Shown: piece after piece, positions 12,590 through 43,337 of the stretch
Numbering within the stretch: the first letter of the stretch is position 1
Layout: each line of letters starts with the position of its first letter
Source: a virus
Virus record (IMG/VR): IMGVR_UViG_3300042561_000572
Coordinates: 1-64,000 of that record
Length of the DNA stretch: 64,000 nt
Direction: 5' to 3' (one strand)
The notes under the pieces: model-generated
Seen by the model: only the letters and a program-made list of their open reading frames with translations
Database searches by the model: none
Told to the model about the DNA's origin: nothing
Position numbers and translations under genes: made by a program

Positions 12590-13026
12590 GTGAGTTTATC
12601 TCCTATTACAAATATTTTATTGAGGGCCAATTACTCTCATCACCAGCTTAACAGTATAGTATATACATACATGCATAACATACATACATATATACACTGT
12701 TACTCAGTCCTTTGAACTGCTGAGTGGGGGTTTAGAGTTGTAAAGACACATAAAATGTCTTTACTACTTTTGTGATAGGGAATTTGCTATAAACTGACAT
12801 AGTTTATTCCCTGTTTTCTTACAGTTACATACCAGCTATTTATACCCTGTTAGATAAGGGGCCCTATATAAATACTACTAACTATAAGCCAGTAAAAGTA
12901 TAAATAGGTTGTAACTGTCCTGCTACCATAGAACCAGGAGGTAATTAAATACTGTAACATACTTAATTAAAAGAGTTTATAACTCCACTAGATATAGGTA
13001 TCTAATAGAGTTATAAACTAGAATTG
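12590..13026. other. Non-coding spacer with several hairpins and a terminator
   Basis: Visible stems: ACTCAG/CTGAGT (about 12704-12727), GTAAAGACA/TGTCTTTAC (about 12739-12763), AGGGAA/TTCCCT enclosing ATAAACT/AGTTTAT (about 12776-12811), and AGTTTATAACTC/GAGTTATAAACT at 12974-12985 and 13008-13019. On the minus strand the last is followed by CTTTT and probably terminates the gene ending at 13027. An alternating ATACATAC tract lies near 12660-12690. No gene is seen. Confidence 0.5.
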
Positions 13027-13833: not shown

Positions 13834-14168
13834 AATTAACTCTCAAACTAATAAATTAATGAATTGATTTTGTAAGTACTAATTAAAACTTTCCTTACTT
13901 CTTGTAATAGGTATCTCTTAAATTTCTTTAAGATTATTTATTACTTCTCGTAATGGGTATCTATATAACAACAACCAGAACAGCTATGCTGCAAAACTTA
14001 GGGAGGAAAATAATATCATATAATACTAACCACTCCTACTAACTCAATAAATAATTTATAAATCTACTAGGTTCCCCTTTTAAAATATAAACTATTTATA
14101 AACCGCTTTTAGAGTGTTTTTCTTATTGGTTTATTATTAAATAATTTATTAGTAAATAAATTACTAAT
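13834..14168. promoter_or_regulatory. Leader with a direct 22-bp repeat
   Basis: Between the RNA polymerase stop and the start at 13833, TTACTTCTTGTAATAGGTAT (13895-13914, continuing CT) recurs as TTACTTCTCGTAATGGGTAT (13941-13960, continuing CT), a 46-base period with two or three mismatches. It may be an operator or a phage promoter element for the minus-strand gene. Nothing else is seen in this 330-base stretch. Confidence 0.4.
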
Positions 14169-14192
14169 AAAAGGGGCTGTTAAACCCCTTTT
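14169..14192 (-). terminator. Terminator after the 1546-residue polymerase gene
   Basis: AAAAGGGG (14169-14176) pairs with CCCCTTTT (14185-14192). On the minus strand the stem is immediately downstream of the stop at 14200 and is followed by TTATTAG. Confidence 0.7.
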
Positions 14193-14199
14193 ATATTAT

Positions 14200-17100
14200 C
14201 TACTTGCTAGAATATTGATCATTGATCATATCCTGTTGAGCAGCTTTAAAGATATAACTGCTTACATTATTGTGAATGTAAACACCATTATCCAACATTT
14301 CTTTCAACCAAGGATTGTGCATAGTTTCACTTGCTTTAGATTTATCCAAAGCAGCAAACAAGCTCAAAGGAGAAATGTGATCTTCATCATCCATTTCACT
14401 TGACTCCATCATTTCAAGTTTGGATTCTCTCATGGCTACACCAGCAGGATCAGCGCCTTGACCCATTCTTCTTAAACCACCATAGATATAGGATTCAAGA
14501 AGTTCAGTCTCAGTTTTAATGAGTTTAGTAACCTTACTACCTTTCTCCATACCAGTAAAGAATGTTCTAGTACGTTCAGCTTCTAGAATAAAGCTCATAG
14601 CTCTATACATTAGATTGTAATAAGAGTTAGAACCATCTTCTTTAGTCTTACCAACCCAGAATTTAGACAATCCATTGCCATCTTCTTCTTCTTCACCTAG
14701 ATAAAGAAGAGTCTTAACAGCATCAATGACTTTATCTTCTTTAGTAACACGTTGGTCAGATGGATACATATATTCTCCATCTTTATAAACAAATGTACCA
14801 GTCATTTTAGAAGCACCAAGAATGGCAAACCATTTAGTTGCAGCAGCAGAATAACCTGCAAGACCTAAGCCTTCATATAAGGCCCTCCAAGCAATGACAA
14901 CTGCCAATTTCAAAGCTTTAACATTGGCTAGATCTTCTGCTTTATTAGAGTACAAGATGTTAGCAAGCTTAAAGGTTAAAGCAGATGCAATACCATAGGC
15001 AATACCAACAGCAGCAACGTAGTGCTTTTGTACCAACTCACCAGACTCAAAGTAACCAATATGTTCTTTACCATCTTCATCAGTATAAGAATACTTAGAA
15101 ATAGTAGAAACATAAGGCTTACAATACTTAGCTTTATCAGCAGCATTGTCCCACTTGAGCCATTTCTTCTTAGGCTTTTCAGAGAACTCAGCATAAGGCC
15201 AGTTAGAAACATCTTCTCCATAAACAATCTTGTAGCCCTTAAGACCAACCCAAGAATCATTCATTTCATTGACATCTTTAGCACCTAAACCTCTAATACC
15301 AAGATTCAATACTGATACACCATCACCATCAGTATCACCTTCATTAGCCATAGACCAAAGATAAGGTAATAGAAACATGTGGCTTCTACCAACCTTCTCA
15401 GTCACGACAAGTTTAGCACCTAGACCCATAAACATAGGAATACGGAATGCAGCTACAAACTCACCATTTAGAAGATAGGGATTAAAGTAGAGAGCAACTA
15501 AACCATCTTTAGTCTTCTTGCATCCAACATAAATACAAGATTTATTAGGTTTATGATCTTCAGTTTCAAAGGCATCACCATTAGTATCACCCTCAGCACC
15601 AAAGTTGTTAAGTACAACTTCTTCTATATACTTAGAGTAGAATCTACCTTTAGCATCCTTAGCAAGAAGATGAGTAGCCATACAATCAGGATTCATAGCT
15701 ACCTTTGGAATACCATCAGCATCAGATTGCAAGAAGATATAATAAGCAGTTCTAACCTTCAAGTTGACTAAACACTTGCTAGTTCTAGCAGCACGTTTTA
15801 GTACACCCTTAGACTCAAATGCTTGTCTCAACCAACCCTTCAAAGACTTCTCAAGTTTACAAGTCTTCTTGTAAAAGTAGCTATCATATCCAGACTTAGG
15901 AGGATTAACAATAGCTCTTAAAAAGCCAACAATCTCTTGAGCCATTTGATCAGCAGAGCCACTGATCCATACCATTGTAGATCTAATGATATCAAAGTCT
16001 AAATACAAGATAGAATTACTACCTTCATGATTATTAGCTTTCAAATATAAACCATTAGGATACAACAGCTTATAAGCATCAAGAACTTTAGAGTCAGAAA
16101 GTCCATCCAAAGAACCAATTTTAGCCATCAATTCCTTCTGCTCTTTAGAATCATTAAGATTAACAGAGTTGTTAATAGTAACTTCCTTAGACTTAGTTAC
16201 CATATTAACTAAACCTAGAACAGCTTTTCTAGCTTCTTTGGACTCAAGATATAGCACTTCTGCCAATCTTCTAGACTGAATAGAGATACCAGCTTGCATC
16301 TCAGGAGTCATACCAGAAAGAGATATTGATTCATCAGGTGTGCTAATTTCAACCTCAAAGTTGAGATTACAAACAAGAATTTGAATGTGTTCTCTAACAG
16401 TAACATATCCATCATGTTCAATGACAGACACAATACCAGATAGTTTATCTTGTTTGTCAGATTTGGTAGCATGAGCAGCTACAAGCATATCCCATTCATC
16501 TCTAGCAATGTCAACCTCTAGTAAAACATCTTTAGCTTCAGACTGAACCCAATCAGAGATGATGTTATCCGCTAATGTAACATCTACATAATGTTCTCCA
16601 CCTTCAATAGAAACAAGAGCATCATTAGGGAAATAAACAGCGTCAACACCAACTGTATTAGCAAAAGCATCAATGTGAACACTTCTACCCTTGATAGTCT
16701 CGTTGTTAAACAACATTTCAACATTAAGATCAATGGCATTACCTTCCATGTCATAGAAGTTAAAGTCCATTGGAGTAGTAGTATTCTTAGTGAAATACCT
16801 TCTATTCTTTACAAGCTGAGTAGATGATAAAGCTTCTACTTTGAATTCAACATTGAAATAGGCAGGTTCATAGTCTGCATCAGCCACTTCAACATGTCTT
16901 ACACTTGCAGAAATAACTCTAACAGGAATGTTAGGAAAGTCATTTTTAACAACAATCTTAGTGCCTGGAAATGTTTTGACATCTAAAATAGTTTCACCAG
17001 ATTCAAACAATCTATCTTTATCAATTGCTTCAATCTTAGCAGCAACTCTAGATATGAGATAGTAAAAAGCATGATGCTTTTTAAATCCATGCTTAACACC

Positions 17101-18840
17101 CATATCTTTAAACTTGGCAATAGTTTGAGTATTAAAGTCATGTAGAGAGATTCTACCTTTTAGAGTCTTTTCAATACCACAATGACATTCAACATCAGGT
17201 CTTGTAAATACACCACCTGAACCTGCACTAAGACCAGAATTGGATATACCAATAGATCTTAATACACCTTCTTGTCTAAGAATAGTTCCATCAGGGAGCA
17301 TAGTACCAAACAAGGATTTAGTTCTAGCTTTAATAGCATAATTATTAGAAGTGTATTGTTCAGCTTTCAAGAACTTGCAAGATTGCATTGGTCTATTCCA
17401 CAATTTAGATGGTTTGCCTGCATCATGTAGAGTATAAACCCATTTACCACCATCACCAATCAAAGCAGCATTAGCAGCAGTTCTACCTCCAAAGAATTTA
17501 AGAAGATACTTGTCACCAGTAACAATACCTTCTTCTTCTAAACAAGCTTTAACCGCTTGCATATCTACCTTTTTAGTAGGATTACCTACCACAAGCCAAG
17601 GGAAACATGAATTAAATGTTCCTGCAAAGTTAGAATACATTTGTAAAGCGTTAGAAGCATTCATAGGGATTGCAACTGCTGGATCAGTCTCCTCAGTTTT
17701 AACCCCATAATTAGGATCTTCAACCCACAAAGTAGGAGTTTTATTGACAAGACCAGCAACTTGCCAAGTAGATATATCAGGTCTAGCAATAGCTTGTGCA
17801 AAGTAGAATAAACCTACTAAACCTTTAACAGTTGCACCTCCAAGTACTACATTGTTAACAGAGTAATAGGAGTCTTCAGAGGTATGTAGTATACCTTTAT
17901 TGAAGTCAACACTGAACCCACCGCCAGGTTTAGTTACGGTTGCAACACCTTCTTTGTGTGTAGTATTAACACTAAGAATAGAGAACAGTTCAGCCATTTT
18001 ATCTGAAGATAAATCAGACATCCAAGAAGCAGCATGAGCAGCAACAAAGTCAGATACTTCATGTGTATATAACACATTAGTTACATCTTCATGTTCATCT
18101 TTGTTGTAGGGAATAAGATAAATTTCTGAATCACCTTTATGTCCTACAACCTTTTGATATCCATCAAGATATCTATATTTAAACTTAGAACCTACCAGTT
18201 TAACTTCTTTACCATTAGGTGTAACAGTGGTAGATTCTGTAGCATGATAGATTTCAACACCAACAGAAAGTAGGAAGTTAATCCAAGGATATACCAAAGA
18301 AGCAGACTTTTTGGTAGACACCAACAACAACTTTTTATTAGCTGGAAGAGCCAAAGGACAAATGCTATTAGTATGGTAGAAATCAACCAACTTATTAGCT
18401 TGCATAGTCCATGCATCGGTTTCCTTATAGGGAATAGAGTATAGAACCGCAGCTTCCAATTCACTAGTTTCACCAGCAACTGAAGTCAAGTTATTAACTT
18501 TTGACAGTTGAGTTGCAGCATCAATCTTAGAAGGAACGACCTTCTTATCAGTTCTAATAACAGGAGAATAAACAGCAGGCGTTCTGACTGATTTAGGCCA
18601 CATAGTATCAGGTTGTAGTAGATCTTTACAAGCAGAAACCACAGCAAAGAAAACATTCAAAGCAAGCTTAGAAACTTGAGCAGGTTGAGTAACCTTCTTC
18701 ATAGCTTTAGCAGCCTTTTTAGCAGCTTCAGCCTTAAACTTAGCTTCATGGTGAGCAGTCTTTTCTGCTCTCAAAGCATTAGCCTGTTCAATCAAAGTAG
18801 AAGACATACGAGGATTCTTGGTCTTGTTCTTAGTAGACAT
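14200..18840 (-). CDS. Large DNA-dependent RNA polymerase-like protein (beta-prime double-psi barrel)
   Basis: A 1546-residue protein. The catalytic signature is at the C-terminal third: Arg1133-x-Pro1135, Gly1141, Pro1159, Asn1166 and Asp1169-Thr-Asp1171-Gly-Asp1173. The spacing reproduces the R-x-P...LG...P...N-A-D-F-D-G-D block of bacterial beta-prime almost position by position, with one inserted residue before the Asp triad. Those three Asp residues should bind catalytic Mg2+. The N-terminus (1-60) is basic and helical. A beta-type double-psi barrel is expected upstream; a candidate lies at about 620-720 (VKNRRYFTKN), but this is weak. No T7-type polymerase motif is present. It probably transcribes middle or late genes from the infected cell's cytoplasm. 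The ATG at 18840 follows an AAACTCACA leader and a hairpin. Confidence 0.82.
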   Translation of the reverse strand: MSTKNKTKNPRMSSTLIEQANALRAEKTAHHEAKFKAEAAKKAAKAMKKVTQPAQVSKLALNVFFAVVSACKDLLQPDTMWPKSVRTPAVYSPVIRTDKKVVPSKIDAATQLSKVNNLTSVAGETSELEAAVLYSIPYKETDAWTMQANKLVDFYHTNSICPLALPANKKLLLVSTKKSASLVYPWINFLLSVGVEIYHATESTTVTPNGKEVKLVGSKFKYRYLDGYQKVVGHKGDSEIYLIPYNKDEHEDVTNVLYTHEVSDFVAAHAASWMSDLSSDKMAELFSILSVNTTHKEGVATVTKPGGGFSVDFNKGILHTSEDSYYSVNNVVLGGATVKGLVGLFYFAQAIARPDISTWQVAGLVNKTPTLWVEDPNYGVKTEETDPAVAIPMNASNALQMYSNFAGTFNSCFPWLVVGNPTKKVDMQAVKACLEEEGIVTGDKYLLKFFGGRTAANAALIGDGGKWVYTLHDAGKPSKLWNRPMQSCKFLKAEQYTSNNYAIKARTKSLFGTMLPDGTILRQEGVLRSIGISNSGLSAGSGGVFTRPDVECHCGIEKTLKGRISLHDFNTQTIAKFKDMGVKHGFKKHHAFYYLISRVAAKIEAIDKDRLFESGETILDVKTFPGTKIVVKNDFPNIPVRVISASVRHVEVADADYEPAYFNVEFKVEALSSTQLVKNRRYFTKNTTTPMDFNFYDMEGNAIDLNVEMLFNNETIKGRSVHIDAFANTVGVDAVYFPNDALVSIEGGEHYVDVTLADNIISDWVQSEAKDVLLEVDIARDEWDMLVAAHATKSDKQDKLSGIVSVIEHDGYVTVREHIQILVCNLNFEVEISTPDESISLSGMTPEMQAGISIQSRRLAEVLYLESKEARKAVLGLVNMVTKSKEVTINNSVNLNDSKEQKELMAKIGSLDGLSDSKVLDAYKLLYPNGLYLKANNHEGSNSILYLDFDIIRSTMVWISGSADQMAQEIVGFLRAIVNPPKSGYDSYFYKKTCKLEKSLKGWLRQAFESKGVLKRAARTSKCLVNLKVRTAYYIFLQSDADGIPKVAMNPDCMATHLLAKDAKGRFYSKYIEEVVLNNFGAEGDTNGDAFETEDHKPNKSCIYVGCKKTKDGLVALYFNPYLLNGEFVAAFRIPMFMGLGAKLVVTEKVGRSHMFLLPYLWSMANEGDTDGDGVSVLNLGIRGLGAKDVNEMNDSWVGLKGYKIVYGEDVSNWPYAEFSEKPKKKWLKWDNAADKAKYCKPYVSTISKYSYTDEDGKEHIGYFESGELVQKHYVAAVGIAYGIASALTFKLANILYSNKAEDLANVKALKLAVVIAWRALYEGLGLAGYSAAATKWFAILGASKMTGTFVYKDGEYMYPSDQRVTKEDKVIDAVKTLLYLGEEEEDGNGLSKFWVGKTKEDGSNSYYNLMYRAMSFILEAERTRTFFTGMEKGSKVTKLIKTETELLESYIYGGLRRMGQGADPAGVAMRESKLEMMESSEMDDEDHISPLSLFAALDKSKASETMHNPWLKEMLDNGVYIHNNVSSYIFKAAQQDMINDQYSSK

Positions 18841-18865
18841 AATAATTAGGTTGTGAGTTTATTAA

Positions 18866-18888
18866 TTAAGATGCTGTATTGCATCTAA
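18866..18888 (-). promoter_or_regulatory. Leader hairpin of the polymerase gene
   Basis: TTAGATGC pairs with GCATCTAA around loop AATACA on the minus strand, 25 bases before the ATG at 18840. The next gene's leader hairpin (20247-20272) has the same AATACA loop. Confidence 0.6.
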
Positions 18889-18890
18889 GA

Positions 18891-18918
18891 AAAAGGGGGC
18901 CAATTAAGGCCCTCTTTT
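18891..18918 (-). terminator. GGGCC-type hairpin after the 430-residue gene
   Basis: Arms 18891-18901 and 18908-18918 (AAAAGGGGGCC with GGCCCTCTTTT) pair with one G-T; the minus-strand product ends in TTTTTC. It is the first of a family of similar hairpins between 18.8 and 25.5 kb. Confidence 0.65.
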
Positions 18919-18929
18919 AACTATAATGT

Positions 18930-20222
18930 CTATAGATCTACATCAGCAAATTCATCATCTGCTTCTGCTTGTTTATTGGATGCATTAAGCCAATCCATAG
19001 GATTAGCAACAGCAACAGGTTGTACAATCAATTCTTCTTCAAATGCAAGAGCTTCATCTACCATTTCATCAGAAGAGACAACAGAATCTCCAAGAGCTTC
19101 GTTTACCAATTCATCAGATGAAGGAGTAATAGCAACAGAAGGAGAAGCTAATAATGCTTGAGCAGCATCACCAACCTTCTGAATCAGTTGCACTCTCAAA
19201 GAGCCCATAAGAAGTTCATGATTACTCATTGTGTAATGAGCATTGAGTCCACGCTTAGCAATGTAGCTGAGTGAAGCTTCATAGCCGTGGTCCCAATTAC
19301 CTGCTTCAACAGCAGCAATCAAACCCTTCTTGGCATCAAGATGAGCCTTTTTGCCAGTGCCAATCTTAGCAAGAGACATCTCTTGTTTGATTTCAATAGC
19401 TTCAAAGAAAGCATCAGGCAATGTTTTATTGCCATCGGCATTCAACTCATCTTCTGCCATTGCAGCAAGACCAGCAGCAAAGCCTCTTTCAAGTCTTGCA
19501 TTGCTGACCACATTTCTAGGTTTAGGATTGTAGACAGTCTTGCCTTCTTCAAAGACAACAGCAATGATTGCTGGCTCCAAGAAGACCTTGTAACCACCTC
19601 CACCTTCACCTTCATGGCGCTTGTCAAGTTCCACAGTGTCTCTCACATGAGTTTTATTCATGGAAAAGTAAACAGTGAGAAGACCCTTTTCAGTCTTCAT
19701 AGTGTCAACAAGATTGTCCAAAGAACCATCATCATTGAAGGTCAGCTTGGCGTAGTTAGCACCATAAGTAGTCTGAAAGAAAGCACGTTGAAACCTGCCA
19801 TTGAGCTTAGTCTCTTTCAAAACTGCTCCAGAAAGAGGAGGACAAGGCTTGTTTTGAGAAAGAAACAAAGCCTTGATAGCCTTATCATCTTCACTCTCTT
19901 CAAGCTGAAGAACTGACAGATTAAGTGCAAAATCGGTATCAGGAATGAATTTGTCTTGATCATCATAACTGCCAATTGTATTGTCAATCTCCCAAAACAG
20001 ACGCTGATTTTTGGCGTTGAGCTTCATCATGCCACAACCACCAAGACCAGTGATTGTTCTCATCCACCTGCCTTTAGCCTGTTCTTTAAGAACAGAGGAA
20101 GGGTTAGCATTGAGATCAAGTTTAAACACCCTTGCACCAGATGCAACTTCATCCTTGACCTTCTGAAGGTAGTCAGCAGTAGAAGCATCAGAAGAAGAGG
20201 CAGACTTAGTTAGAAAAGCCAT
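18930..20222 (-). CDS. Hypothetical early protein, 430 aa, linked to the RNA polymerase gene
   Basis: A 430-residue protein (MAFLTKSASSSDAST). No known domain was recognised. The central part (about 50-260) is a mixed alpha/beta region with a Gly-rich GEGGGGYKVF segment near 205; the C-terminal 80 residues are acidic and low in complexity. The end carries NPMDWLNASNKQAEADD, matching the gene at 13027. Its G+C content is visibly higher than that of the late genes. The ATG at 20222 has an AGGAT site and a leader hairpin. Location just upstream of the RNA polymerase gene suggests a replication or transcription partner; T4-like single-strand binding proteins also end in acidic tails, but this is only analogy. 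Confidence 0.7.
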   Translation of the reverse strand: MAFLTKSASSSDASTADYLQKVKDEVASGARVFKLDLNANPSSVLKEQAKGRWMRTITGLGGCGMMKLNAKNQRLFWEIDNTIGSYDDQDKFIPDTDFALNLSVLQLEESEDDKAIKALFLSQNKPCPPLSGAVLKETKLNGRFQRAFFQTTYGANYAKLTFNDDGSLDNLVDTMKTEKGLLTVYFSMNKTHVRDTVELDKRHEGEGGGGYKVFLEPAIIAVVFEEGKTVYNPKPRNVVSNARLERGFAAGLAAMAEDELNADGNKTLPDAFFEAIEIKQEMSLAKIGTGKKAHLDAKKGLIAAVEAGNWDHGYEASLSYIAKRGLNAHYTMSNHELLMGSLRVQLIQKVGDAAQALLASPSVAITPSSDELVNEALGDSVVSSDEMVDEALAFEEELIVQPVAVANPMDWLNASNKQAEADDEFADVDL

Positions 20223-20246
20223 GATATTAATTATCCTGTCAGATTA

Positions 20247-20272
20247 TTATCTACACTGTATTGTATAGATAA
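20247..20272 (-). promoter_or_regulatory. Leader hairpin
   Basis: TTATCTATAC pairs with GTGTAGATAA (10 bp with one G-T) around loop AATACA on the minus strand, 25 bases before the ATG at 20222. Confidence 0.6.
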
Positions 20273-23630: not shown

Positions 23631-23631
23631 T

Positions 23632-31038: not shown

Positions 31039-31237
31039 ATACAACTTTACCTAATTCATAGTCAAATACTCTCCATCTAAGACTTCTTTTAAATTTAAAA
31101 GTATGAAGTCTATTATCATGAGCCATTTCTATAATACTTATGAAGTAATCTAAATCATTAGTTATTTTAAAAGTACCTTTATCAATAACCCAATGATTAT
31201 CTTGTAATGTTTGTATTCTATATCTAATTTTAAACAT
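31031..31237 (-). CDS. Small basic protein (68 aa)
   Basis: MFKIRYRIQTLQDNHW from the ATG at 31237, which overlaps the last eight bases of the 4035-codon gene; an ATG six bases earlier is also possible. Basic and aromatic, possibly beta-rich. Co-expression with the giant gene by reinitiation is likely. Confidence 0.62.
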   Translation of the reverse strand: MFKIRYRIQTLQDNHWVIDKGTFKITNDLDYFISIIEMAHDNRLHTFKFKRSLRWRVFDYELGKVVYE

Positions 31238-34200
31238 AAGCACTATCTCCTGAAACTAAATAAGTTTCACTTCTACTATCACTACTTAAGTTTTCAAACT
31301 CAACATCTGTTGCCCAAACACCAACTACAACTGGTGGTACATCTAACTTATCAGGCACATCTATAAAGTCACTGGACATTGGATCTATTTCAGCTTCACC
31401 TCTAGCAGCTATAGCATCAGATAAGTTATCTTGCATTTGAGCCAACTTATTATTTAAATTATTATCTCCTTGGTTGAAGTTGCTTTTTAATAAACCAGCA
31501 CTTTGTTGAATACTACTATCAAGCATATTCATAGCTAAAGCACCAACAAATGATCCAATAATAGCACTAACACCACTCTCTGCTATTGGCACATTATGTC
31601 TAAACAAAGGAGCAACAACATTTCTATTAAACAAGTCTGTTAACTTAGGAGTAACATAAGTACCAACTAGACTAAGTGAAGCTTCAGTTGATGCAGCTTT
31701 AGCTAAGTTAGTGGCCCAATCTTCATCAGGATTTCTATAAGCTTTACTTCTAAAGAGAGCACCAGCAGCATTAGCAGCACCTTTACCATGTGGCATGTTA
31801 TAACCCATTAAACTTAAAGTACCACCAATAACACCTGCTGCATCCATACCAGCTTGATCATTAGAAGTACCATATATAGCACCACCAATCATACTAAGTA
31901 AAGCAGGACCAACTATATTAAATATACCATCAGCAGCTTTAACTTTTAACTCTTGTCTAGTAGTACCATCATTACCTCTAGCAACATGTTCAGGTTTAAA
32001 GTAATCTTTACCCTCCTTACTTAAAGTACCTAACAATAAGCCATTTTCAGCTAACAATTCATCTGCTAATGCTTTAGCCTCTGCTTCATTTTTATTTATA
32101 TTTTTATGCTGACCTACAATCTGAGCATGTATCTTATTATAAGTAACATCACTTATTTCACCAGCTTGATTCATAGCAGCAGCAACTTCACTAATAGCTT
32201 GTAATTTAAAGCCTTGTGATGTTTTCTTACTTTGTCTATTAATCAAATCACTAACTAATTCATTCTTTCTTTCAACCTTACCATCAATGGTTACTTCATG
32301 TTGTATTTCAACATGTTTAAGATGCTTATACATTTCTGCCATTTCTTTAGCATTCTCCTCATCACCACTAAAGTTAGACATCATTTGTCCCATAGCATCA
32401 GCATTAGTCAATTTAGGATCATTAACAGCTTTAAACAGTCTGCCCATAACAGAAGCACCTTCCATGCTAAGTTTACCTTGAGCCATTAACCTATAAGCAG
32501 CATTAAACAAATCACCACCTAATAAGCTAGTACCAACCTCTCTAACACTAGAACTTGTAATGTTTCTTTGCATGTCCTTACTAGCTTTATTTAGATGAAC
32601 AAATCTATCTAAACCACTACCATAATCACCCATAAATGTCTTAGTTTGAGTGATACTAGCATGATGACTAAGTACTAATAGAGAAGCAGTTGATAAGCCA
32701 CCACTACTTTGTCTAACCTCATTAAGTTTAGCCATATTATCATCAGTCATAGCCATTCCCATATGTTCATAAAGCATAGTACCAAAAGCACCATTAGAGT
32801 TAGTAATCATCTCTGCTGAGAACCTGTTAACTTGTTCTACTACAGCCTTATCTCTATGTTGTTCTGATACATAACCAACACTATAACCACTGGCTCTTGT
32901 AGAAAATCCAACTCCTCTACTATTAATACCATCTATAGCATTATATAAACCTTCAACTGCTTTAACAGCATCTGCTTTATTCCCCATTGCTAGCTCAGCA
33001 AGAGTTAAACTAACACCTTTACTATCACTACCCTTACCTAAAAAGCCATGTAATCCTTCACTAATAGTCTTTTCCAAAGCTCTATTACTACTAGCTTTAT
33101 CATCAATCTTTAACTTACCATCCTTACCAATTTCTAATGAACCAAAGTTCTTTTCAAAGTTAAACATAGTAGTAATACTTCTAAGACTACTACTAACTTT
33201 AAACTTAATTAAAGAATCTTCATTTACATCAGACCCCATTAAAGCCATTCCAATATCTCTTTGATCTCCAGTTATGTTATAGTCTCCAATGCTGCCATAT
33301 CTACCTTCTCCATCTTTCCTTTCACCAGTAGAACCAGCAGCATGAATCATCTTATTTAAATCCATTAGACCCTTCATACCAGCACCAGGACCAATTTTAG
33401 AAGCCATATCATTAACTAAACTTTGTCTTTTACTCTCATCAGCAGTAGTATATTCTTCTGACATCTTAATAAGTTCAGCCATAACAGAACTAGAATCACC
33501 CTTTAGTTTTATACTATCTCTAAGCATCTGTTGAACTGCTTTATTCCAACCTTGCAATTGTTGTGCTTTATCATATGAAGCTTGTAAGTTAGCCATAAAT
33601 CTAGTGCCTTCATCTGATGGCATAACAACAGAGTTACTAGCATTATTAACTGGCCCATGTTGTCCAGTCATTCTGTTCATCTTCTCAGCAATCTGTGGAC
33701 TATCACCTTCTAATATGTGATACAAACTAACAATAGGAGAATCAGCAACAAAAGTGCCAAGTAAAGTGTTATAAGTCTTACCTAACACATCACTACCAGC
33801 CTCACCTAATGTTTTAGTTAATACATCATATGTTGATTCACCCATACCAATACCTAAGCCAGCATTAATCTTACTGTATAAAACATTACTAGCTTTACTA
33901 GTTGCATCTAACTTACTAAATAGAGTTGTAAAATAAGCCTCTTTATTAACCTCACCTTCAAAGTTATGTAAAGTATTACTGCTTTGTTTTAACTCATCCC
34001 AAGTAAGTCTCATACTGTTTGTTAAAGCTTCTTGTAACTCTTGTTGCATATCAGTATCTTGCAGTTGAGTTGAGTTTAAAGTCATACCAATAGCAGTAAA
34101 GAACTGATTCTTATCAGAACCTGTTTCTATGCTTTTTATCATATCATCTAAAGTATTCTTATCAAAGGTTAAACCAACAGAATGTTTACTGCCCAAAGAA

Positions 34201-37200
34201 GCATTTAACAAGTCCTCAACTCTAGTATTCATTTCACTATTAACACCTTGCATACCACCATATAAGCCTTTACCTTGATCTAACATAGCAGCCATAGAAC
34301 TAACATTAATAGTACCCTGACTTCTAAAACCACCTTCATTACTACCTCTAAAGAATCTACTATCAATACCCATATAAGAGGCCACATCTTTTGCCATCTT
34401 ACTTTGTTTATCAGGAGCATTCATATCCTTTTGCAATGACTTTAAAGCCATAGCATCTTCAAATAATTTAGCTTCTTCATTGGCTAATGTCTTCTCTAAT
34501 TTACTAAGAGCTTCTGTGTCTGATATAGGACCAACAAAAGCTTTCATTGAACTAATTTCTTTCTTTTTATGTTCAATTACAAATCTTCTATCATCAATTG
34601 TATTAATCTTTTCAGTAACCTTATGTAGCAACGTCATATAGTTATCACCATCAAAGTCACCTAAGTTACTAGTTAAGAATGACAAACCACTAAAGATTGA
34701 AATACTCTTACTTCTATCAACATCAAACCTAACAATATTGTCATCTATTGCTAAGTTATCAATCATTTTATTGAATTGATCAACACCTCTAATAGCCATT
34801 AAAGTAGCAAGATGAGATTCAGTTGAACCATATGGTGCTGATCTCCAGCTTTGATTTTGCATGTTATCAAGTTCACTCATACTATTATGAATGTAGCCTA
34901 ATTCTTGTAATGAATAGTGTAAGAACTTAGTACTTAAAGTGCCTCCTTGATCCTTATAAGCAGCCACTTGTTCTTTAATGTTAGTCATATCATTAATCAT
35001 ATAACCAACACTCTTTCTATTAGCAGCTACTATAAAGTGTTCTTGTTCTGACTTAGCATTCTTAGTAGAAGTAGGAGCAAAGCCCTCCATAAAGTTCTCT
35101 AAGTTCTTTATTCTATTGTCAATGTATTCAAGTGTAATCTGTCTAGCAGCTTCAAAGTTACCACCTGTTTTTGGATCAGCAGTGTCATTAATTAGATCTG
35201 TAATACTTTGATGAGTTTGCTTATACACAGTATGTTTACCTCTCATAGCACCCTCTAATTCCTTGCTATAATGATTAACAAGATCAAGGCCCATGCTATA
35301 TCTATTCTTCATAGTACTATTATGAATAAAGTCTCTAATCTCATGATTCTTACCAAGATATATAGCATCTTGGTAACCTCTTTCAGACATCCAATCATTA
35401 ACAGTACCTATTAAACCTTTATATTCTTCTCTCTTCTTAGGATTAAGACTGTTTTCAGCTAACTTTGTATCAGCTTTCAACTTAGCAAATTGCAGATTAG
35501 CTAATACATAACTAGCAACATATGCCTTATCATAAGCACCAGTTACATCTAAGTTTTTCTTAACAGTATTAAATGAATTTTGAGCCTTTTCAACAGCAGC
35601 ATCTAAATCATTTATATCAGTAGTCTTACCAGTTTGTACTTGATTAAGTAAATTATGAGCACCACCAATAACTTCAACACCATTCTGCAATTTTAATGCT
35701 GCCATAGTTGAAATACCTCTAACAAGCATTTGCTTTTGATAATCTAATACAGTACCTAATGACTGATTAAAATCTTGTAGTTGTTTATTACTTTGATAAT
35801 TCTTAAACTTAGTAGACATCTCACTACCAAGTGTTGTATATGTTAAATGTGCAGCAGCAGTAACCTCAAATAGTTTCTTTCTAAGACTAGCAATACCTTC
35901 AGGTGCTCCATACTTCTCATTAACAAATTGGGGCATAACATTCATGTTAGCAGCTAAACTTAAGTTAGGAATACCAGTACTAACATAACCTTCAAACTCA
36001 GTACCATGACCTGCAACTGCTTTTTGCATTAAAGTATCAGAACTAGCTTCTGATATAGCTTGTAATAACTCATCACCAAGATAACCTAATCTAGCAATCA
36101 TATCAGTCTCTTCAGGGCTTAAATTAACATTGAAGGTGGCACTATTCTTTTGTGCTGCTCTAGCTTTAGCAACTTTAATCATTACATCATTTTCAGCAGT
36201 ACCTGGTACAAAATAACTTTGCATATTTAATGTTTTACCAACAATATCACTAACAAAGTCACCAAAAGATGAACCAACTTGATTTAACAAATCAGCACCA
36301 GGCATAAATATATATGTGTTTTGAGTATTACTAAATACAGTATTAACATCTCCAGTCATTTGATCTACAAGTGGTCCACCAACTACTTTTGGCATTAATA
36401 TGTTATAAGTCCTATTACCAGTATCTTGTAACATTTGTAGCTTAGGTTGAGTTATATCTGTACCCATACCTTTACTTTGTTCTAAGTTATAAGTTATGGC
36501 AGACTTTCTTAAAGCTTCAATTATATGTTGACCAACACGCCTTAATTGACCAGCATAATCAGTAAGCTTAGCAGTAGGATCACTATTATGTTTATCCCTA
36601 TTTAACCCATCAACATATGTTGCTTCAGCAAGAGTTAAATCACCGTTATTATAGTAATCTTCTACTTTACTAACATCAAAGTTCTTTTTAATAGATGGTT
36701 TATAAATAGTTCTATATTCTTTTATTAACTCACTACTATTCTCATTAGCATTATAATAAACTCCTAAGAAGTCCCTACCAAAGAAGCCACTCATAGTTAC
36801 TGGATCTAATGCTTGAATTGCTTGTATACTCTTTAAATACTCTGCACTATCAGCCATACCAACACTAATAAGTCCAATCTCTTGAGCAGCAACAACAGTA
36901 CCTAACACATACGCTAAGTTACCCTTATTACCAGTTCTAGTAAACTGTTTAGATTGAGCTTCTAATGGTGCTAACAAGTGTTGCATTTCAGTCTTAGCTC
37001 TTAAGTTCTTACCAAGAGGATCTTTACTAGCAGAAGGTGATATAGACAATGATAATTGCACTGCATAGTTTTGTTGCAAGTATATACCCATTTGATTAGC
37101 AAGTTGTTCTTTCTCCTCATTAGTCATATTAAAAGCATTATCACTACCACCTAAAGCTGCTGCAATTTCCAACAATGGATCATTTAAAACTACACCACTG

Positions 37201-40200
37201 TATGCATCATAATTGCCTGTAACTGCATTAGGTGTAGCAGCTCTTGTTAAAGCTCCTATTTCTGATAGTGGACTTGTCTTTAAAGGACCAATAAAAGAAT
37301 CATCATTAAACTTACCAGTAGTACCATCATTTTGTCTTACCTTCATTTTAAGCATCCAATCAGTAACCATACTAATGTCACCTCTTTGATTCTTAAGCTG
37401 ACCAAACATATCAATAGCAGTTAACATAGCAGAGACACCTCTAGTATATAAGTCACTACTATTAATTACATAACCATCACCACTTCTACTACCAACAGTG
37501 TTAACATAACCTTGTAATAAGCCTGTTAAATCTCCACTATCAGTTAATATGGCATCTCTAATAGATCCTACAAGTTCCTTATTATTCATAATGAATTGTG
37601 GAATACTACCAAAGATATTATCCTTTGATCTAGTAGCTTTACCAGTAAGTACATTCTGCATTTCAGCCATTCTAATAAAGGTGCCAAACTCACCTTTAAT
37701 AGCAGCCTTCTTATAAGCTTTAACATATTGATCATTCAACATTAAAGCATCACCTGGTTTATTCCTTTCATATGAACCATCAGCTATAATGTCTAAACCA
37801 AACTGACTAATCAAAGCTGCTGCTAACATTCTATTAGTCTGTTTAACAAGAGTATTAGCAAGTTTAGTTCTAACTCCATCAGGACCAGTTACATCTTTAG
37901 TAAACAACATAGAAGCATGATCCATAAAGAAGCCACTCTTTAAGTTGTTAGGATTAATCAAGCCATAAACATCAGATACTTGATTCTTTAAAATACTAGC
38001 ACTACTTATACCTGCTTCAACTGTTTTAATAGCCCCCATATCATCTTTAAAAGTAGATTCATAGCCTAATGATTTCATAAAACTACTAAATACACCCTCA
38101 AATTGACTACCTTTTAAAGCAGCACCAACACCTTTAAATAAAAGACCAGCAGCAGTACCTTCATGTCTTCTACCAGAACCAGGTTGTAATATTGGCAAAG
38201 CACTTACTTGGTATTTTATTTCATTAGTGCCTGGACTACCACCTTCAACTCTACCAGCAGTAAGAATAAGATGAACTGAATCTTCACCAGGTCTATTACT
38301 AATTGACTTTTGTTTAACAGATGCTACAGGTTTACCAAATAAACTGAAGTTTTCAATCTGTCCAATTAAATAATCAGCACTACCAGTACCTCCAACATAA
38401 GTTACATTATCTCCACCATCTGCTCTAATTTGAACAACCTTATTAACACTTCTATCATATACAAAAGTATCACCTTCATTAATAACAAGGCCATTCTTTT
38501 GCAACATATCACCACTAAAAGTTACTTCACCAACATGTGTTCTAGCATCTAACATAGAAGCCTTAATACCAGTATTAGTAACAGTTGGCATACCAGCATA
38601 ATGTTGTGTTCTAAATTTAGGATTAGTATAGAAGTGATCACTATAACCACCATTAAGTTGTAATAATACAAACTGTTGTTTATCTCTTCTACCTCCAACA
38701 ACTGAACCAACACTATTAGCAACACTACTATAACTAATCATCTTCATTCTAAACATGTTGTTAAGTATTTGATTAGTATCTTCTCTCTCTGTCTCACTTA
38801 AGTTTAAATCTTTAAACTTATCAAATAATTCTTTTCTCTGCGCTAATACAAAGTTATAAGCACTTTCATTTAGCACTGTTCTAACATCAGTATCAAACAT
38901 AGAACCTAAGTTTACTTCTTCTGCTGTTAGATAATTATGTATAAACTTCTTAGCTTTATCATCAGTTAATAAAGATGTTAATTGAGCTATATTATCTGCA
39001 ATGCCCTTTCTTTGACCTGCATTATATTCTTTTAAACTACCCTTTTCTAATATAGTCTTAGAAGCCTCTTCAGATACTTCATACATTAATCTACTACCAA
39101 GAGCATTCTTAATTCTTTGGTTAATTTGTGCTGGTTTACTAGGATCAAGATTAAATAACATACCTCTTTGATTACCTTTAACATTTAACAATGTCATAAT
39201 CTCATCAACTTCACTGTCTTTAAAGTCACCACTATTAACAAGTTTATCCTTACTAATAAGAACACCAATACCAGTTCCTTCAAGGATATCAATACTATTC
39301 CTATCAGTTGGAAACTTATTTCTAACACCAAATGATTCTAGTTGATAACCTTTCTTATTCTGAGTAGAAACACCTTCAGCAACACCACCTAAATAAAACC
39401 TTTCATTACCTTCATAATCAGTACCAAAACCACTATAAACACTAACATCTCTAGCAAATGTTCTAGCATATTGTAATGTTTGTAGAAGAGGGTTCTTACT
39501 AACATCAGCAATGTTTAGTAAACTCATAGCTCTTTCATTACCAGCATCTAAACCATAATTAATATACTTACTAGCAGGAACACCTGCCGCATAACTAATA
39601 GCCTGGTGAGCTTGTAAATAAGGATCAAATATAGTTTTAGATAACTCTGTCATCTGACTATTTAAATCTCTTTCAGCATTATATTTACTATTAACTCTAA
39701 GAACATCTAAGGTTAAATCTTGATAACCTTCTTGACCTAATAGTTGACCAATAGCATGTATAGCTGTAAAAACATCATCACCACTTTTAGCATTTCTAAT
39801 ATTTTGTATTTGATCTGTTAACTTAATGCCAAACTTTGTACCTTCAACATTAACATTAACATTTAACCTGTTATAAACATCTACACCAGCTAACTGTCTA
39901 GTAGTATCTAAATAACTAATACCTTCAGCATTAAATCTACTTTCCAATGCATTAGCAAGGTCTTTATATCCACCCCTATCAAACAAGTTATTAGATCTAC
40001 CCCTATCAAACAAGTTATTAGAATAAGCTAATCCATCTGTATTTATGCCAACCTTATTATCAGCTAACATGTATCTAGTATCACCCATCAAAGAAATAGC
40101 AAAGTCTAATGCTAAACCTCTTTTAGTATCAGCATCAACACCTATTAACTTACTAGCAGGATTACTAATAGCTTGTTTATAAGCCATCTCACCAATCATA

Positions 40201-43200
40201 GTAGCAAAGATACTAGTAGTATTATCAATACTAGACATCTCAGCAGATTGACCATGTTCTAAAACACCAGGTCTATCCCCAAACTTCCAACTAATCTTTC
40301 CACCAGTATTATTAGTAAAGTTACTGTTATATATTAACTTACCTTCCTTTTGAAAGAACACAGGACCAGGTTGATTAGCAGTACCTTGTAACATACCAAG
40401 AGTATAAGTAAGCCTACTAGTATTAGTGTTTAAACCTAATAACTTACCAGGCATAATAGCAACTTCTAACATAAGAGGAGTGCCAAATCTATCATACTTT
40501 CTAGTAATAGACATAGCATCCCCTAACCCTTTACTCATCTCCCTTAAAGTACTTTCTAACTTTAAAAGATCACCAGTATTAGATTGTCTAGCCCAGTATG
40601 GTAAACCTTCAATGGAGGGTAACAAACCATTATCTAACCTATTACCATAGTTAAGTTGAGCATAAGACATAGTTACAGCCTTATTATTATCTTTTAACTC
40701 ATACATTTCTTCTTCTGCTAATAAAGAATATTCATTACTAAAGCCTAAGTTTAAAGCCTCAATGTTATCTCTAAAGTCTTGGTCATAGCCAGTATTACTT
40801 TCCTTAGCAGCATCAATGAATAACTTTCTATTAACATAAACAGCACCCATTTCATCACTAACATATGGATCATTACCTCCAACACCAAGATACTTATTAT
40901 CAGGTCTAATATCAACACCTAATGAGTTCATACTAAAGTTAGAAGAGTTAGCAGCAGTACCAGCTATTTGCTGAGTATATTTAACATATGTACTACCATC
41001 TTTTCTTGTTGCTGATTCATATCTATAAGCACTAAAAGACTTACTATGTTGTCTAGGAACATCAGCACCAGCCATATTACCACTAGCAATAGCAAGCATT
41101 TGTAATGCAGTTAAGTTCTTACCATCAGTAATATCTAATTGAGCATTAATAAGTTCAACCTTTCTATTTAGTGATTGATTACTCTCTGTTACAGCATTAA
41201 CAAAGCCACTAATAGAGCCACTAAATTCATTATGAAACCTAGCACCAAACCTATCATTTAAATAATTCCAAGTAGGTTCTATGACCTGTTTAGTAAAGTT
41301 ATTAGTATCAACTACAACCTTACTAATACCCATTGCTATCAAACTAAAGTTCTTTCTTTGTATGTCTCTATACAATTCATATCTAACATCTTGTCTTGAT
41401 CTAAACTGACCACTTCCAAGAGTATTGGAACTAAATTTACCCATTTCACCAATCTCTTGACTGGTAGCATCATTAAATCTATTAGCTCTATTATTAGGAT
41501 CACTACCATTAACATCTAAATGATTAACATGTAATAAGTATGCTTGATCAAGCACCATAGTCATACCTAAATCACCAGTATATTTACCCTTTAATTCGTC
41601 TAAACTACTATTCATTTCTCTACCACTTTCAGTGTGTAAATAGTCAACAGTAGCCTTCAATGTATACATAATATCAGTTGCAAACTTAATATTAGATTGA
41701 CTACTTATAGTTGTTATTTGTTGTTTTTGAGCAGCAACAACTTGTTCATACATAAGAGCAGATACAGTCTTCTTATATTTATTAACCTTATTATCATTTA
41801 ACTTTTGAGGATCAAACTTACCTAATAACAAATTAAGTTGTGCTAACCCAGAGAAGTCTTTAAAAGATGTCCAATTATTTAATAGTTCTGGTAACCTGTT
41901 AATATATTCTTGTCTCTTTTTAATTAAATCCTTATTACTATGAAACATGCCTAACATTTCATAGTTGGAGCCAGCTTTAAATATAGAATCACCAACAGGA
42001 CTAGTTAAGTTAATAGAGCCTAACACAGCAACCTGATCTGTTATATAAACCTTTCTATGATGAGCAGGGCCAGCAAGCTTAATGTTAAACACACCAGGAA
42101 CCCCATCTTTACCATTAACAATCTCTTCTGCTTCTTGTCTAGTTTTTTTCTTGCTATTAACAAGTTCATTGATAATAGTTTCTTTTAACTTCTCCATCTT
42201 TGCAACTTCAAGTATATTAGGCCCAAAGATAGCAGCACTAGTACCTTCATCACCTGGAATAGGAGAACCAACAATCATATTAACTTTAAAGCCATAGTTC
42301 TCATTACCTATGATTTCTCTATAGATCTTACTAACAACAACATCACTAATAGCTCTATTTTGATATTGGAAAGTATCAATTGTAATGCTTTCTTTAGCAG
42401 ATTCAAACATAGAAACAAATGGTAATATACCAGGTCTAGTTTGATACTTAACATCATCAATCACTTTAGCTGCTTTTTGTTTATAACTATTGTTAATACT
42501 AGTATCAATAGCTTTAATGTTTCTTCTATTTATACTAACACCACCCTTAGTTAACTCATTAACATAAGACTTACTTCTAACAAAGTCTAAGTCAGTAATA
42601 GTCTTACCAGCTTTACTTCTACTACTATTAAAAGTACCTTCATTAATTGCTCTAAGCTCATCTGCTGAGTTACCATCAACAGGAACAAGACCACTACCAA
42701 ATAGATCAGCATTAACTAATCTCTCTAATGTCTCTTGTCCTCTAGCTTCCATATCTCTAATATTAGAACTAGATTGAACACGACTAAAAGCATTAGCATA
42801 CTGATAGCTTTGATCTAAGTAATAATTATCTTTAGCTTTAGTAGGATCTTCAATGTATAAACCTTTTTTAGCTAAAACATTACCAAATATATTTTCAAAT
42901 ACCACTTGACTAGCATAAGCTTTAGTCTCAGTAGGATCAATTCTATAAGCTTCACCAACTAAGAACTTAAGACTCTTTCTACTATCTAATAAGCTATTAG
43001 AAACATTACTATCAAACTCAGTAAACAGTCTAGTAGTAACAGTTTGACTAAGACCTAATACAAACTTATTAGAGAATGCTTCTCTTTTACCAGTAGTAGT
43101 AACATGTTTAGGATCAAACATACCACCTGATATATCACTAGTCATACCAATAGCATTTTGCCAATCACTATTAGTTGAGCCTAACTCATTAGTAAAGACT

Positions 43201-43337
43201 TCACTGTTATACAAACCATAACCAACAGAAGTTGCAAGAGCACTTCTATTACCTTGTTCTATAAAACCATGAAGACTACTAACAGATTGTCTTCTATGTT
43301 CTAAATGATATTCAGTGTTTGAGAAATAACTTGACAT
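31230..43337 (-). CDS. Giant 4035-residue protein with PLD and RNA polymerase-like motifs; candidate virion RNA polymerase
   Basis: At 12.1 kb this is the largest gene here and the only long one running against the head-tail block. Residues about 300-480 resemble a phospholipase D/nuclease domain: AKESITIDTF helix-strand, then His427-x-Lys429-x4-Asp434-x6-Gly-Ser-x-Asn443, and NYEMLGMF after it. Residues 2885-2900 contain TSNLGDFDGDNYMTLL; Asp2894, Asp2896 and Asp2898 match the DxDGD metal triad of double-psi-barrel RNA polymerases, closest in style to the single-chain YonO/QDE-1/crAss-like form. The C-terminal 250 residues hold Gly/Ala-rich hydrophobic helices that could cross or sit in a membrane. 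Most of the chain is Ser/Asn-rich helix without known domains. By analogy with packaged polymerases of N4 and crAss-like phages it may be injected with the genome. A giant internal or ejection protein without polymerase activity is the alternative. Confidence 0.6.
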   Translation of the reverse strand: MSSYFSNTEYHLEHRRQSVSSLHGFIEQGNRSALATSVGYGLYNSEVFTNELGSTNSDWQNAIGMTSDISGGMFDPKHVTTTGKREAFSNKFVLGLSQTVTTRLFTEFDSNVSNSLLDSRKSLKFLVGEAYRIDPTETKAYASQVVFENIFGNVLAKKGLYIEDPTKAKDNYYLDQSYQYANAFSRVQSSSNIRDMEARGQETLERLVNADLFGSGLVPVDGNSADELRAINEGTFNSSRSKAGKTITDLDFVRSKSYVNELTKGGVSINRRNIKAIDTSINNSYKQKAAKVIDDVKYQTRPGILPFVSMFESAKESITIDTFQYQNRAISDVVVSKIYREIIGNENYGFKVNMIVGSPIPGDEGTSAAIFGPNILEVAKMEKLKETIINELVNSKKKTRQEAEEIVNGKDGVPGVFNIKLAGPAHHRKVYITDQVAVLGSINLTSPVGDSIFKAGSNYEMLGMFHSNKDLIKKRQEYINRLPELLNNWTSFKDFSGLAQLNLLLGKFDPQKLNDNKVNKYKKTVSALMYEQVVAAQKQQITTISSQSNIKFATDIMYTLKATVDYLHTESGREMNSSLDELKGKYTGDLGMTMVLDQAYLLHVNHLDVNGSDPNNRANRFNDATSQEIGEMGKFSSNTLGSGQFRSRQDVRYELYRDIQRKNFSLIAMGISKVVVDTNNFTKQVIEPTWNYLNDRFGARFHNEFSGSISGFVNAVTESNQSLNRKVELINAQLDITDGKNLTALQMLAIASGNMAGADVPRQHSKSFSAYRYESATRKDGSTYVKYTQQIAGTAANSSNFSMNSLGVDIRPDNKYLGVGGNDPYVSDEMGAVYVNRKLFIDAAKESNTGYDQDFRDNIEALNLGFSNEYSLLAEEEMYELKDNNKAVTMSYAQLNYGNRLDNGLLPSIEGLPYWARQSNTGDLLKLESTLREMSKGLGDAMSITRKYDRFGTPLMLEVAIMPGKLLGLNTNTSRLTYTLGMLQGTANQPGPVFFQKEGKLIYNSNFTNNTGGKISWKFGDRPGVLEHGQSAEMSSIDNTTSIFATMIGEMAYKQAISNPASKLIGVDADTKRGLALDFAISLMGDTRYMLADNKVGINTDGLAYSNNLFDRGRSNNLFDRGGYKDLANALESRFNAEGISYLDTTRQLAGVDVYNRLNVNVNVEGTKFGIKLTDQIQNIRNAKSGDDVFTAIHAIGQLLGQEGYQDLTLDVLRVNSKYNAERDLNSQMTELSKTIFDPYLQAHQAISYAAGVPASKYINYGLDAGNERAMSLLNIADVSKNPLLQTLQYARTFARDVSVYSGFGTDYEGNERFYLGGVAEGVSTQNKKGYQLESFGVRNKFPTDRNSIDILEGTGIGVLISKDKLVNSGDFKDSEVDEIMTLLNVKGNQRGMLFNLDPSKPAQINQRIKNALGSRLMYEVSEEASKTILEKGSLKEYNAGQRKGIADNIAQLTSLLTDDKAKKFIHNYLTAEEVNLGSMFDTDVRTVLNESAYNFVLAQRKELFDKFKDLNLSETEREDTNQILNNMFRMKMISYSSVANSVGSVVGGRRDKQQFVLLQLNGGYSDHFYTNPKFRTQHYAGMPTVTNTGIKASMLDARTHVGEVTFSGDMLQKNGLVINEGDTFVYDRSVNKVVQIRADGGDNVTYVGGTGSADYLIGQIENFSLFGKPVASVKQKSISNRPGEDSVHLILTAGRVEGGSPGTNEIKYQVSALPILQPGSGRRHEGTAAGLLFKGVGAALKGSQFEGVFSSFMKSLGYESTFKDDMGAIKTVEAGISSASILKNQVSDVYGLINPNNLKSGFFMDHASMLFTKDVTGPDGVRTKLANTLVKQTNRMLAAALISQFGLDIIADGSYERNKPGDALMLNDQYVKAYKKAAIKGEFGTFIRMAEMQNVLTGKATRSKDNIFGSIPQFIMNNKELVGSIRDAILTDSGDLTGLLQGYVNTVGSRSGDGYVINSSDLYTRGVSAMLTAIDMFGQLKNQRGDISMVTDWMLKMKVRQNDGTTGKFNDDSFIGPLKTSPLSEIGALTRAATPNAVTGNYDAYSGVVLNDPLLEIAAALGGSDNAFNMTNEEKEQLANQMGIYLQQNYAVQLSLSISPSASKDPLGKNLRAKTEMQHLLAPLEAQSKQFTRTGNKGNLAYVLGTVVAAQEIGLISVGMADSAEYLKSIQAIQALDPVTMSGFFGRDFLGVYYNANENSSELIKEYRTIYKPSIKKNFDVSKVEDYYNNGDLTLAEATYVDGLNRDKHNSDPTAKLTDYAGQLRRVGQHIIEALRKSAITYNLEQSKGMGTDITQPKLQMLQDTGNRTYNILMPKVVGGPLVDQMTGDVNTVFSNTQNTYIFMPGADLLNQVGSSFGDFVSDIVGKTLNMQSYFVPGTAENDVMIKVAKARAAQKNSATFNVNLSPEETDMIARLGYLGDELLQAISEASSDTLMQKAVAGHGTEFEGYVSTGIPNLSLAANMNVMPQFVNEKYGAPEGIASLRKKLFEVTAAAHLTYTTLGSEMSTKFKNYQSNKQLQDFNQSLGTVLDYQKQMLVRGISTMAALKLQNGVEVIGGAHNLLNQVQTGKTTDINDLDAAVEKAQNSFNTVKKNLDVTGAYDKAYVASYVLANLQFAKLKADTKLAENSLNPKKREEYKGLIGTVNDWMSERGYQDAIYLGKNHEIRDFIHNSTMKNRYSMGLDLVNHYSKELEGAMRGKHTVYKQTHQSITDLINDTADPKTGGNFEAARQITLEYIDNRIKNLENFMEGFAPTSTKNAKSEQEHFIVAANRKSVGYMINDMTNIKEQVAAYKDQGGTLSTKFLHYSLQELGYIHNSMSELDNMQNQSWRSAPYGSTESHLATLMAIRGVDQFNKMIDNLAIDDNIVRFDVDRSKSISIFSGLSFLTSNLGDFDGDNYMTLLHKVTEKINTIDDRRFVIEHKKKEISSMKAFVGPISDTEALSKLEKTLANEEAKLFEDAMALKSLQKDMNAPDKQSKMAKDVASYMGIDSRFFRGSNEGGFRSQGTINVSSMAAMLDQGKGLYGGMQGVNSEMNTRVEDLLNASLGSKHSVGLTFDKNTLDDMIKSIETGSDKNQFFTAIGMTLNSTQLQDTDMQQELQEALTNSMRLTWDELKQSSNTLHNFEGEVNKEAYFTTLFSKLDATSKASNVLYSKINAGLGIGMGESTYDVLTKTLGEAGSDVLGKTYNTLLGTFVADSPIVSLYHILEGDSPQIAEKMNRMTGQHGPVNNASNSVVMPSDEGTRFMANLQASYDKAQQLQGWNKAVQQMLRDSIKLKGDSSSVMAELIKMSEEYTTADESKRQSLVNDMASKIGPGAGMKGLMDLNKMIHAAGSTGERKDGEGRYGSIGDYNITGDQRDIGMALMGSDVNEDSLIKFKVSSSLRSITTMFNFEKNFGSLEIGKDGKLKIDDKASSNRALEKTISEGLHGFLGKGSDSKGVSLTLAELAMGNKADAVKAVEGLYNAIDGINSRGVGFSTRASGYSVGYVSEQHRDKAVVEQVNRFSAEMITNSNGAFGTMLYEHMGMAMTDDNMAKLNEVRQSSGGLSTASLLVLSHHASITQTKTFMGDYGSGLDRFVHLNKASKDMQRNITSSSVREVGTSLLGGDLFNAAYRLMAQGKLSMEGASVMGRLFKAVNDPKLTNADAMGQMMSNFSGDEENAKEMAEMYKHLKHVEIQHEVTIDGKVERKNELVSDLINRQSKKTSQGFKLQAISEVAAAMNQAGEISDVTYNKIHAQIVGQHKNINKNEAEAKALADELLAENGLLLGTLSKEGKDYFKPEHVARGNDGTTRQELKVKAADGIFNIVGPALLSMIGGAIYGTSNDQAGMDAAGVIGGTLSLMGYNMPHGKGAANAAGALFRSKAYRNPDEDWATNLAKAASTEASLSLVGTYVTPKLTDLFNRNVVAPLFRHNVPIAESGVSAIIGSFVGALAMNMLDSSIQQSAGLLKSNFNQGDNNLNNKLAQMQDNLSDAIAARGEAEIDPMSSDFIDVPDKLDVPPVVVGVWATDVEFENLSSDSRSETYLVSGDSAYV
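39971..40026. repeat. 27-bp tandem duplication inside the giant gene
   Basis: Two copies of a 27-base unit starting CCCCTATCAAACAAGTTATT at 39973 and 40000 give a nine-residue tandem repeat (NNLFDRGRS / NNLFDRGGY). The near-identity suggests a recent in-frame duplication. Confidence 0.85.

Follow-up and report, generated by a model that had tools for sequence, protein, structure and literature searches.

Introduction

The known RNA polymerases (RNAPs) that hold two catalytic barrels in a single chain lack significant sequence similarity among themselves (PMC10770324). One of them, gp96 of phage P23-45, is a giant virion RNAP fused to tail tape. It was spotted by a lone DFDGD motif and then shown to extend RNA; it transcribes the pre-early genes, including the gene of a separate non-virion polymerase, gp64 (PMC10770324). 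YonO of the SPbeta prophage shares just a few two-barrel catalytic residues with multi-subunit RNAPs, and its Asp triad is essential for activity (PMC5467207). Other relatives are gp66 of the crAss-like phage phi14:2 (PDB 6VR4), which is a virion protein, and the RNAPs of the jumbo phages phiKZ and AR9, which are split into several subunits.

Ma-LMM01 is the model phage of bloom-forming Microcystis. All phases of its transcription were ascribed to host sigma70, only sigma70-like promoter motifs were seen, and the same study asks how three temporal classes come from such uniform promoters (PMC5780444). Phage MaMV-DH01 was stated to have no RNA polymerase (PMC9927357). Our full-text search of open-licence papers turned up no RNA polymerase reported for Ma-LMM01-like phages.

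We analyzed a stretch of 64,000 nucleotides of viral DNA (the window), which is the first part of a 94,155-base IMG/VR virus record. Judging by conserved residues and a structure model, its 1546-residue protein is very probably a single-chain two-barrel RNA polymerase with a beta-like and a beta-prime-like half. As in P23-45, there are two candidate polymerases per phage, one of them in a giant protein with DFDGD (5002 aa in P23-45, 4035 aa here). P23-45 gp96 (FRNPVMG...DFDGD) and the 1546-residue protein (FRIPMFMG...DTDGD) are also alike in the layout of R-x-P and D-x-D-G-D. On the other hand, the P23-45 proteins have no significant sequence similarity with the window proteins. The giant of the window is fused to a PLD-like domain and carries the motif in its C-terminal half, whereas gp96 is fused to tail tape. 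P23-45 infects Thermus, whereas the host of the window virus would by kinship be a cyanobacterium.

The remaining systems resemble our protein in fewer respects. YonO, which we compared by its published description, is likewise a single chain but is smaller. The phi14:2 gp66 is also a large single-chain two-barrel RNAP, but it has DFDID where the window family has DxDGD, and sequence similarity was not detectable. The RNAPs of phiKZ and AR9 have the same two-barrel core, whereas in the window virus both halves lie in one chain.

Results and Discussion

Origin of the window

From its sequence, the virus is a tailed phage, kin to the Microcystis and Microcoleus cyanophages, because its structural module (portal, capsid, sheath) is homologous to and collinear with those of Ma-LMM01 and Microcoleus phage My-WqHQDG. 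Judged by phage kinship alone, the host would be a cyanobacterium. The features discussed below are listed in Table 1.

Table 1. Features of the polymerase locus and of the giant gene, with their positions in the window.
Feature	Position	Strand	Basis
Candidate single-chain two-barrel RNA polymerase, 1546 aa	14200..18840	-	ORF, ATG start; PHROG_30979; tblastn homologs; AlphaFold/Foldseek
Beta-like barrel region (DPBB-B candidate), residues 617-696	16753..16992	-	Alignments; six/seven model strands; putative barrel
Beta-prime-like barrel region (DPBB-A candidate), residues 1103-1179	15304..15534	-	Model; region profile vs P23-45 gp96
R1133-I-P1135, counterpart of beta-prime R425-x-P427	15436..15444	-	R and P invariant, nine rows
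Asp triad D1169-T-D-G-D1173, predicted catalytic	15322..15336	-	Triad invariant across all homologs seen
Bridge-helix-like long helix (HYxxxVGxxYG), residues 1263-1296	14953..15054	-	Model helix 914-947; alignment conservation; putative identity
Giant 4035-aa protein, candidate second (virion) RNAP with PLD-like domain	31230..43337	-	DFDGD; PHROG_31006; homologs
D2894-F-D-G-D2898 of the giant	34644..34658	-	D, D, G, D invariant, 11 giants; middle F, W or Y
PLD-like domain of the giant (HRKxxxxD...GSIN), residues 309-481	41895..42413	-	Pfam PLDc_2; 11-giant alignment
Terminator-like stem-loop just upstream of the polymerase gene	18897..18912	-	
Terminator-like stem-loop (AAAAGGGG...CCCCTTTT) just downstream of the polymerase gene	14168..14193	-	Read from sequence

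Conserved residues of the 1546-residue protein

The original prediction had compared this protein with the catalytic block of E. coli beta-prime, and all the residues it listed (R1133-x-P1135, L1140-G1141, P1159, N1166 and D1169-T-D-G-D1173) are present. We aligned the protein with its homologs (nine rows, 18-32% identity to the window protein) and observed 43 invariant positions, including K678, K685, R1133, P1135, W1162, N1166, G1168, D1169, D1171, G1172 and D1173. R1133, P1135, N1166 and the triad are therefore conserved in the family, while L1140-G1141 and P1159 are not and add nothing. The one extra residue reported before the triad is a family trait, as N-x-G-D replaces N-x-D in all members. 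Calling DTDGD an unusual variant has little force, since the middle residue drifts between T, A, S and G; relatives have NEGDADGD, NEGDGDGD or NSGDSDGD, and the window protein has NEGDTDGD.

We take R1133/P1135, N1166 and the triad to occupy the sites of beta-prime R425-x-P427, N458 and D460-x-D-G-D464. Likewise, K678 and K685 presumably correspond to K1065 and K1073 of bacterial beta (in KMAGRHGNKG), the nucleotide-contacting pair. These lysines form K-x-R-x4-K in the window protein (KNRRYFTK) and KLRGxGxK in relatives (KLRGLGKK, KLRGPGVK or KFRTAGLK).

We read the protein as a polymerase because the triad, R-x-P and N stay invariant while the middle residue of the triad drifts, as for a metal site. 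The composite pattern R.P..N..DxDGD appeared in 1 of 20,000 shuffles of the protein, and DxDGD occurs three times in the predicted proteins of the window (0.2 expected from shuffles). It is very unlikely that the protein is a degenerate, non-catalytic two-barrel protein or a regulator of host RNAP. Its polymerase activity is predicted, but at 18-30% identity, with most of the remaining sequence altered, the homologs still retain the triad, R, N and the two lysines.

The third DxDGD of the window (GGDDDGD, in 20307-21185) has no R-x-P/N context and was set aside as chance.

Distribution of the family

The 1546-residue protein matched PHROG_30979 ("unknown function") with E=2e-86. Among phage records, tblastn found homologs only in Ma-LMM01 (gp064), MaMV-DC, -DH01, -CH01/02 and -DL01/02, and weakly in the Microcoleus phage. 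All are annotated as "hypothetical protein", and PHROG_30979, which covers them, has no function assigned. Iterated IMG/VR scans added numerous Ma-LMM01-like copies as well as divergent ones, the latter on contigs G002/L081 (107 kb), G004/L098 (252 kb), G014/L097 (65 kb), G015/L100 (200 kb), G016/L101 (85 kb) and G012/L038 (169 kb). No relatives were found in bacterial or archaeal genome contigs; therefore, at the sensitivity of this search, the family seems confined to viruses. It is unnamed in the main text of PMC10770324. The enzyme class is known; what is new, within the reach of our searches, is the family, the host group and the PLD-fused giant partner.

Some homologs carry additional segments. 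The polymerase homolog of Microcoleus phage My-WqHQDG (OR578708; L002:5434-15666) is 3410 aa long and has a NADAR-like domain, resembling phage NADAR proteins, inserted just after the bridge-helix-like region. The L101 homolog has no such insert at the same place. N-terminal extensions of Ma-LMM01 gp064 (L001:10420-15441) and of the L101 protein (L101:1-9090) have no Pfam match and contain a metallopeptidase-like motif (HELVHH and HELMH, respectively), which is absent from the window protein.

Structure model

We modelled residues 350-1546 with AlphaFold2 from the nine-row alignment, without templates. The model had a pLDDT of 61.8 and a pTM of 0.61, with 75-90 pLDDT in the core. Strands crowd in two places: at residues 617-696, where the two lysines lie, and at residues 1103-1179, where six strands were seen and the DxDGD loop of the triad precedes the last one. 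A long helix occupies residues 1263-1296, where a bridge helix would be expected.

When the model was compared with the PDB using Foldseek, the best 50 of 543 matches were all RNAP chains, mostly beta subunits; similarity to beta had played no part in the choice of the query. The best match was 8syi_C, from a cyanobacterial RNAP elongation complex (E=8.9e-4, prob 0.99), and phiKZ nvRNAP was among the matches (prob 0.98). In BFVD, which holds predicted viral structures, the MaMV-DC homolog came first (1e-42), viral RNAP subunits also ranked, and Ma-LMM01 gp080, named there PLD phosphodiesterase, was sixth (E=7.5e-4, prob 0.54). Whole-chain TM-scores were low (0.1-0.14), as the model does not arrange its domains reliably. 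Therefore, the matches support domain identity and not the overall architecture. As to the two double-psi barrels that had been expected here, the strand order fits and RNAP chains stand at the top, but with a pLDDT of 61.8 and low TM-scores the barrels stay putative.

The two-barrel core is common to PolD and RNAP, and the protein could be a PolD-like DNA polymerase or a primase. We consider this reading extremely improbable and set it aside. The top 50 structural matches were RNAP only, the D-x-D-G-D spacing is that of RNAP, and a separate family-A DNA polymerase was found in 5 of the 5 large relatives tested (Ma-LMM01, the Microcoleus phage, G004, G012 and G015), so there is no need for a DPBB replicase.

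In Acinetobacter phage ME3 (L118:2615-3616 and 4954-7350), ME3_309 (798 aa) lies near ME3_307, which contains HSDVDGDHSP. ME3_309 has the same length as one of the Foldseek matches to the polymerase model. The two proteins are possibly a split, unannotated RNAP of this jumbo phage.

Searches against known polymerases

In sequence-profile searches, the 1546-residue protein matched no solved structure significantly, and nothing significant came up among Pfam families or in hhalign against the three known single-chain polymerases. This missing similarity is not decisive, because the characterised members lack it among themselves. A profile of the DPBB-A region was run against a set of known polymerases to which 180 background ORFs and 900 shuffles had been added, and P23-45 gp96 came out on top. 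It was aligned at its DFDGD, with a score of only 7 bits.

PF00562 and PF00623 were detected in 14 of 14 control genomes and in 0 of 9 records (the window record and eight relatives), a search that distant split genes could escape. A split multi-subunit RNAP was set aside for this reason. PF00940 (T7-like RNAP) had no match in the records, in the 1546-residue protein or in the controls. The original prediction of a stand-alone, single-polypeptide polymerase is thus supported. The single chain is supported by the conserved catalytic signatures, by the RNAP-like model and by the lack of a detected multi-subunit RNAP gene, the sought beta subunit gene included. It is, however, not the sole candidate, as the window also encodes the giant with DFDGD.

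The giant protein

The giant matched PHROG_31006 (E=2.7e-48), and gp080 of Ma-LMM01 is its homolog. It has NLGDFDGDNY at residue 2894; NLGDFDGD is found at residue 2537 of gp080 and at residue 1509 of a truncated ORF in the Microcoleus phage. A giant with D[FWY]DGD accompanies the 1546-residue homolog in every sufficiently long relative. On the divergent contigs the motif is DFDGD in G002, G004, G012 and G015, DWDGD in G014 and DYDGD in G016. The PLDc_2 match (E=1.8e-5, 25 bits) is just below the Pfam cut-off of 27, and the PLD residues H427, K429, N443, N458 and E460 are invariant in 11 giants. A QQxxRDxIKxK segment at residues 3270-3280 is also among the invariant positions.

We propose that the giant is a polymerase, and that the two proteins divide the work, because the pair shares its anatomy with the P23-45 pair. 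By this analogy the giant is somewhat more likely to be a second, probably virion, RNA polymerase than to be something else. It is quite possible, if less so, that its DFDGD is coincidental and that the giant, with its PLD nuclease, is ejected or structural. The model of residues 2560-3345 was too poor to show the fold (all helical, no barrel visible, pLDDT 49.8, pTM 0.34), and hhalign between the two families was insignificant, though its best segment was the DxDGD region. Against coincidence, D2894, D2896, G2897 and D2898, with F, W or Y in between, belong to the only 40 or so invariant positions in about 4000 columns of the 11-giant alignment, and the model of the first polymerase matches the predicted structure of gp080. 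The same kind of clue also revealed P23-45 gp96, which proved active (PMC10770324).

The position of the genes bears on a further alternative, namely that the 1546-residue RNAP is itself packaged in the virion, like phi14:2 gp66, and that the giant does something else. The poor model of the giant speaks for this, and so does crAss gp66 as a case of a single-chain RNAP that is a structural protein (phi14:2 record, MS/MS annotation). We regard it as unlikely, since it is the giant gene that adjoins the portal/capsid(/sheath) module in the window, Ma-LMM01, the Microcoleus phage and G004, whereas the 1546-residue gene sits among small non-structural genes.

Proposed course of transcription

Overall, a predicted single-chain polymerase together with a giant second candidate in one virus is the best explanation, and we hold it with good confidence. 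In the single-chain enzyme, the beta-like double-psi barrel would supply two lysines for nucleotide phosphates, and D1169, D1171 and D1173 of the beta-prime-like barrel would hold the catalytic Mg2+. Both barrels together would make up the active centre, followed by the bridge-helix-like element.

More tentatively, and with slightly less than even confidence, we suggest two-stage transcription, first by an ejected giant PLD-nuclease/RNAP fusion and then by the newly made single-chain RNAP. By analogy with P23-45, the giant would be carried in the virion, ejected and act first, transcribing the first genes. Its PLD domain might cut DNA, perhaps host DNA, during genome entry. The 1546-residue enzyme would be made next, after infection, and most likely transcribe a set of phage genes. 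What we observed is that both catalytic signatures are conserved, that the model of the first protein resembles RNAP chains and that the two proteins occur together; from this we infer polymerase activity, template type, timing and packaging, as well as the fold of the giant. A point against phage polymerases is that the Ma-LMM01 transcriptome, with only sigma70-like promoter motifs, needs none (PMC5780444).

If true, two polymerases would contradict the supposed total dependence of this phage group on host RNAP. Two conserved candidates would reopen the question of how the temporal classes are controlled, and it could then be tested in a phage that grows in culture. The few single-chain relatives of cellular RNAP would also gain a divergent family, and there would be a second, unrelated case of a phage that pairs a giant-protein polymerase with another, separate enzyme.

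Flanking and regulatory elements

The 1546-residue gene is probably transcribed alone, as read from its flanks, because a terminator-like stem-loop lies directly downstream. Stem-loops on both sides fit a separately controlled gene. In the window, sigma70-like sites were no commoner than in shuffles. A search for phage-specific promoters by k-mer enrichment gave only terminator tails, A/T runs and ATAAACTCAC.

We observed five exact copies of ATAAACTCAC, at 11886-11895, 12590-12599, 18853-18862 and 21955-21964 on the minus strand and at 47993-48002 on the plus strand. Four of the five lie just upstream of minus-strand genes, the polymerase gene included. Near-identical terminator-like hairpins (AAAAGGG...GGCCCTTTTATTTA) occupy intergenic gaps in 20277-25459 (minus strand), and 23 terminator-like sites were counted in 9500-26300, with 9 expected.

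The proteins encoded by the neighbours of the polymerase gene (13027-13833 and 18930-20222, minus strand) share a C-terminal stretch (ADPLAWLKQGEENQAE and ANPMDWLNASNKQAEA), perhaps a common docking tail. In Ma-LMM01, seven head-to-tail 42-bp units, one of them partial, lie at L001:15701-15981 between gp064 and the early cluster gp063-gp054 on the same strand, and they may form a regulatory array.
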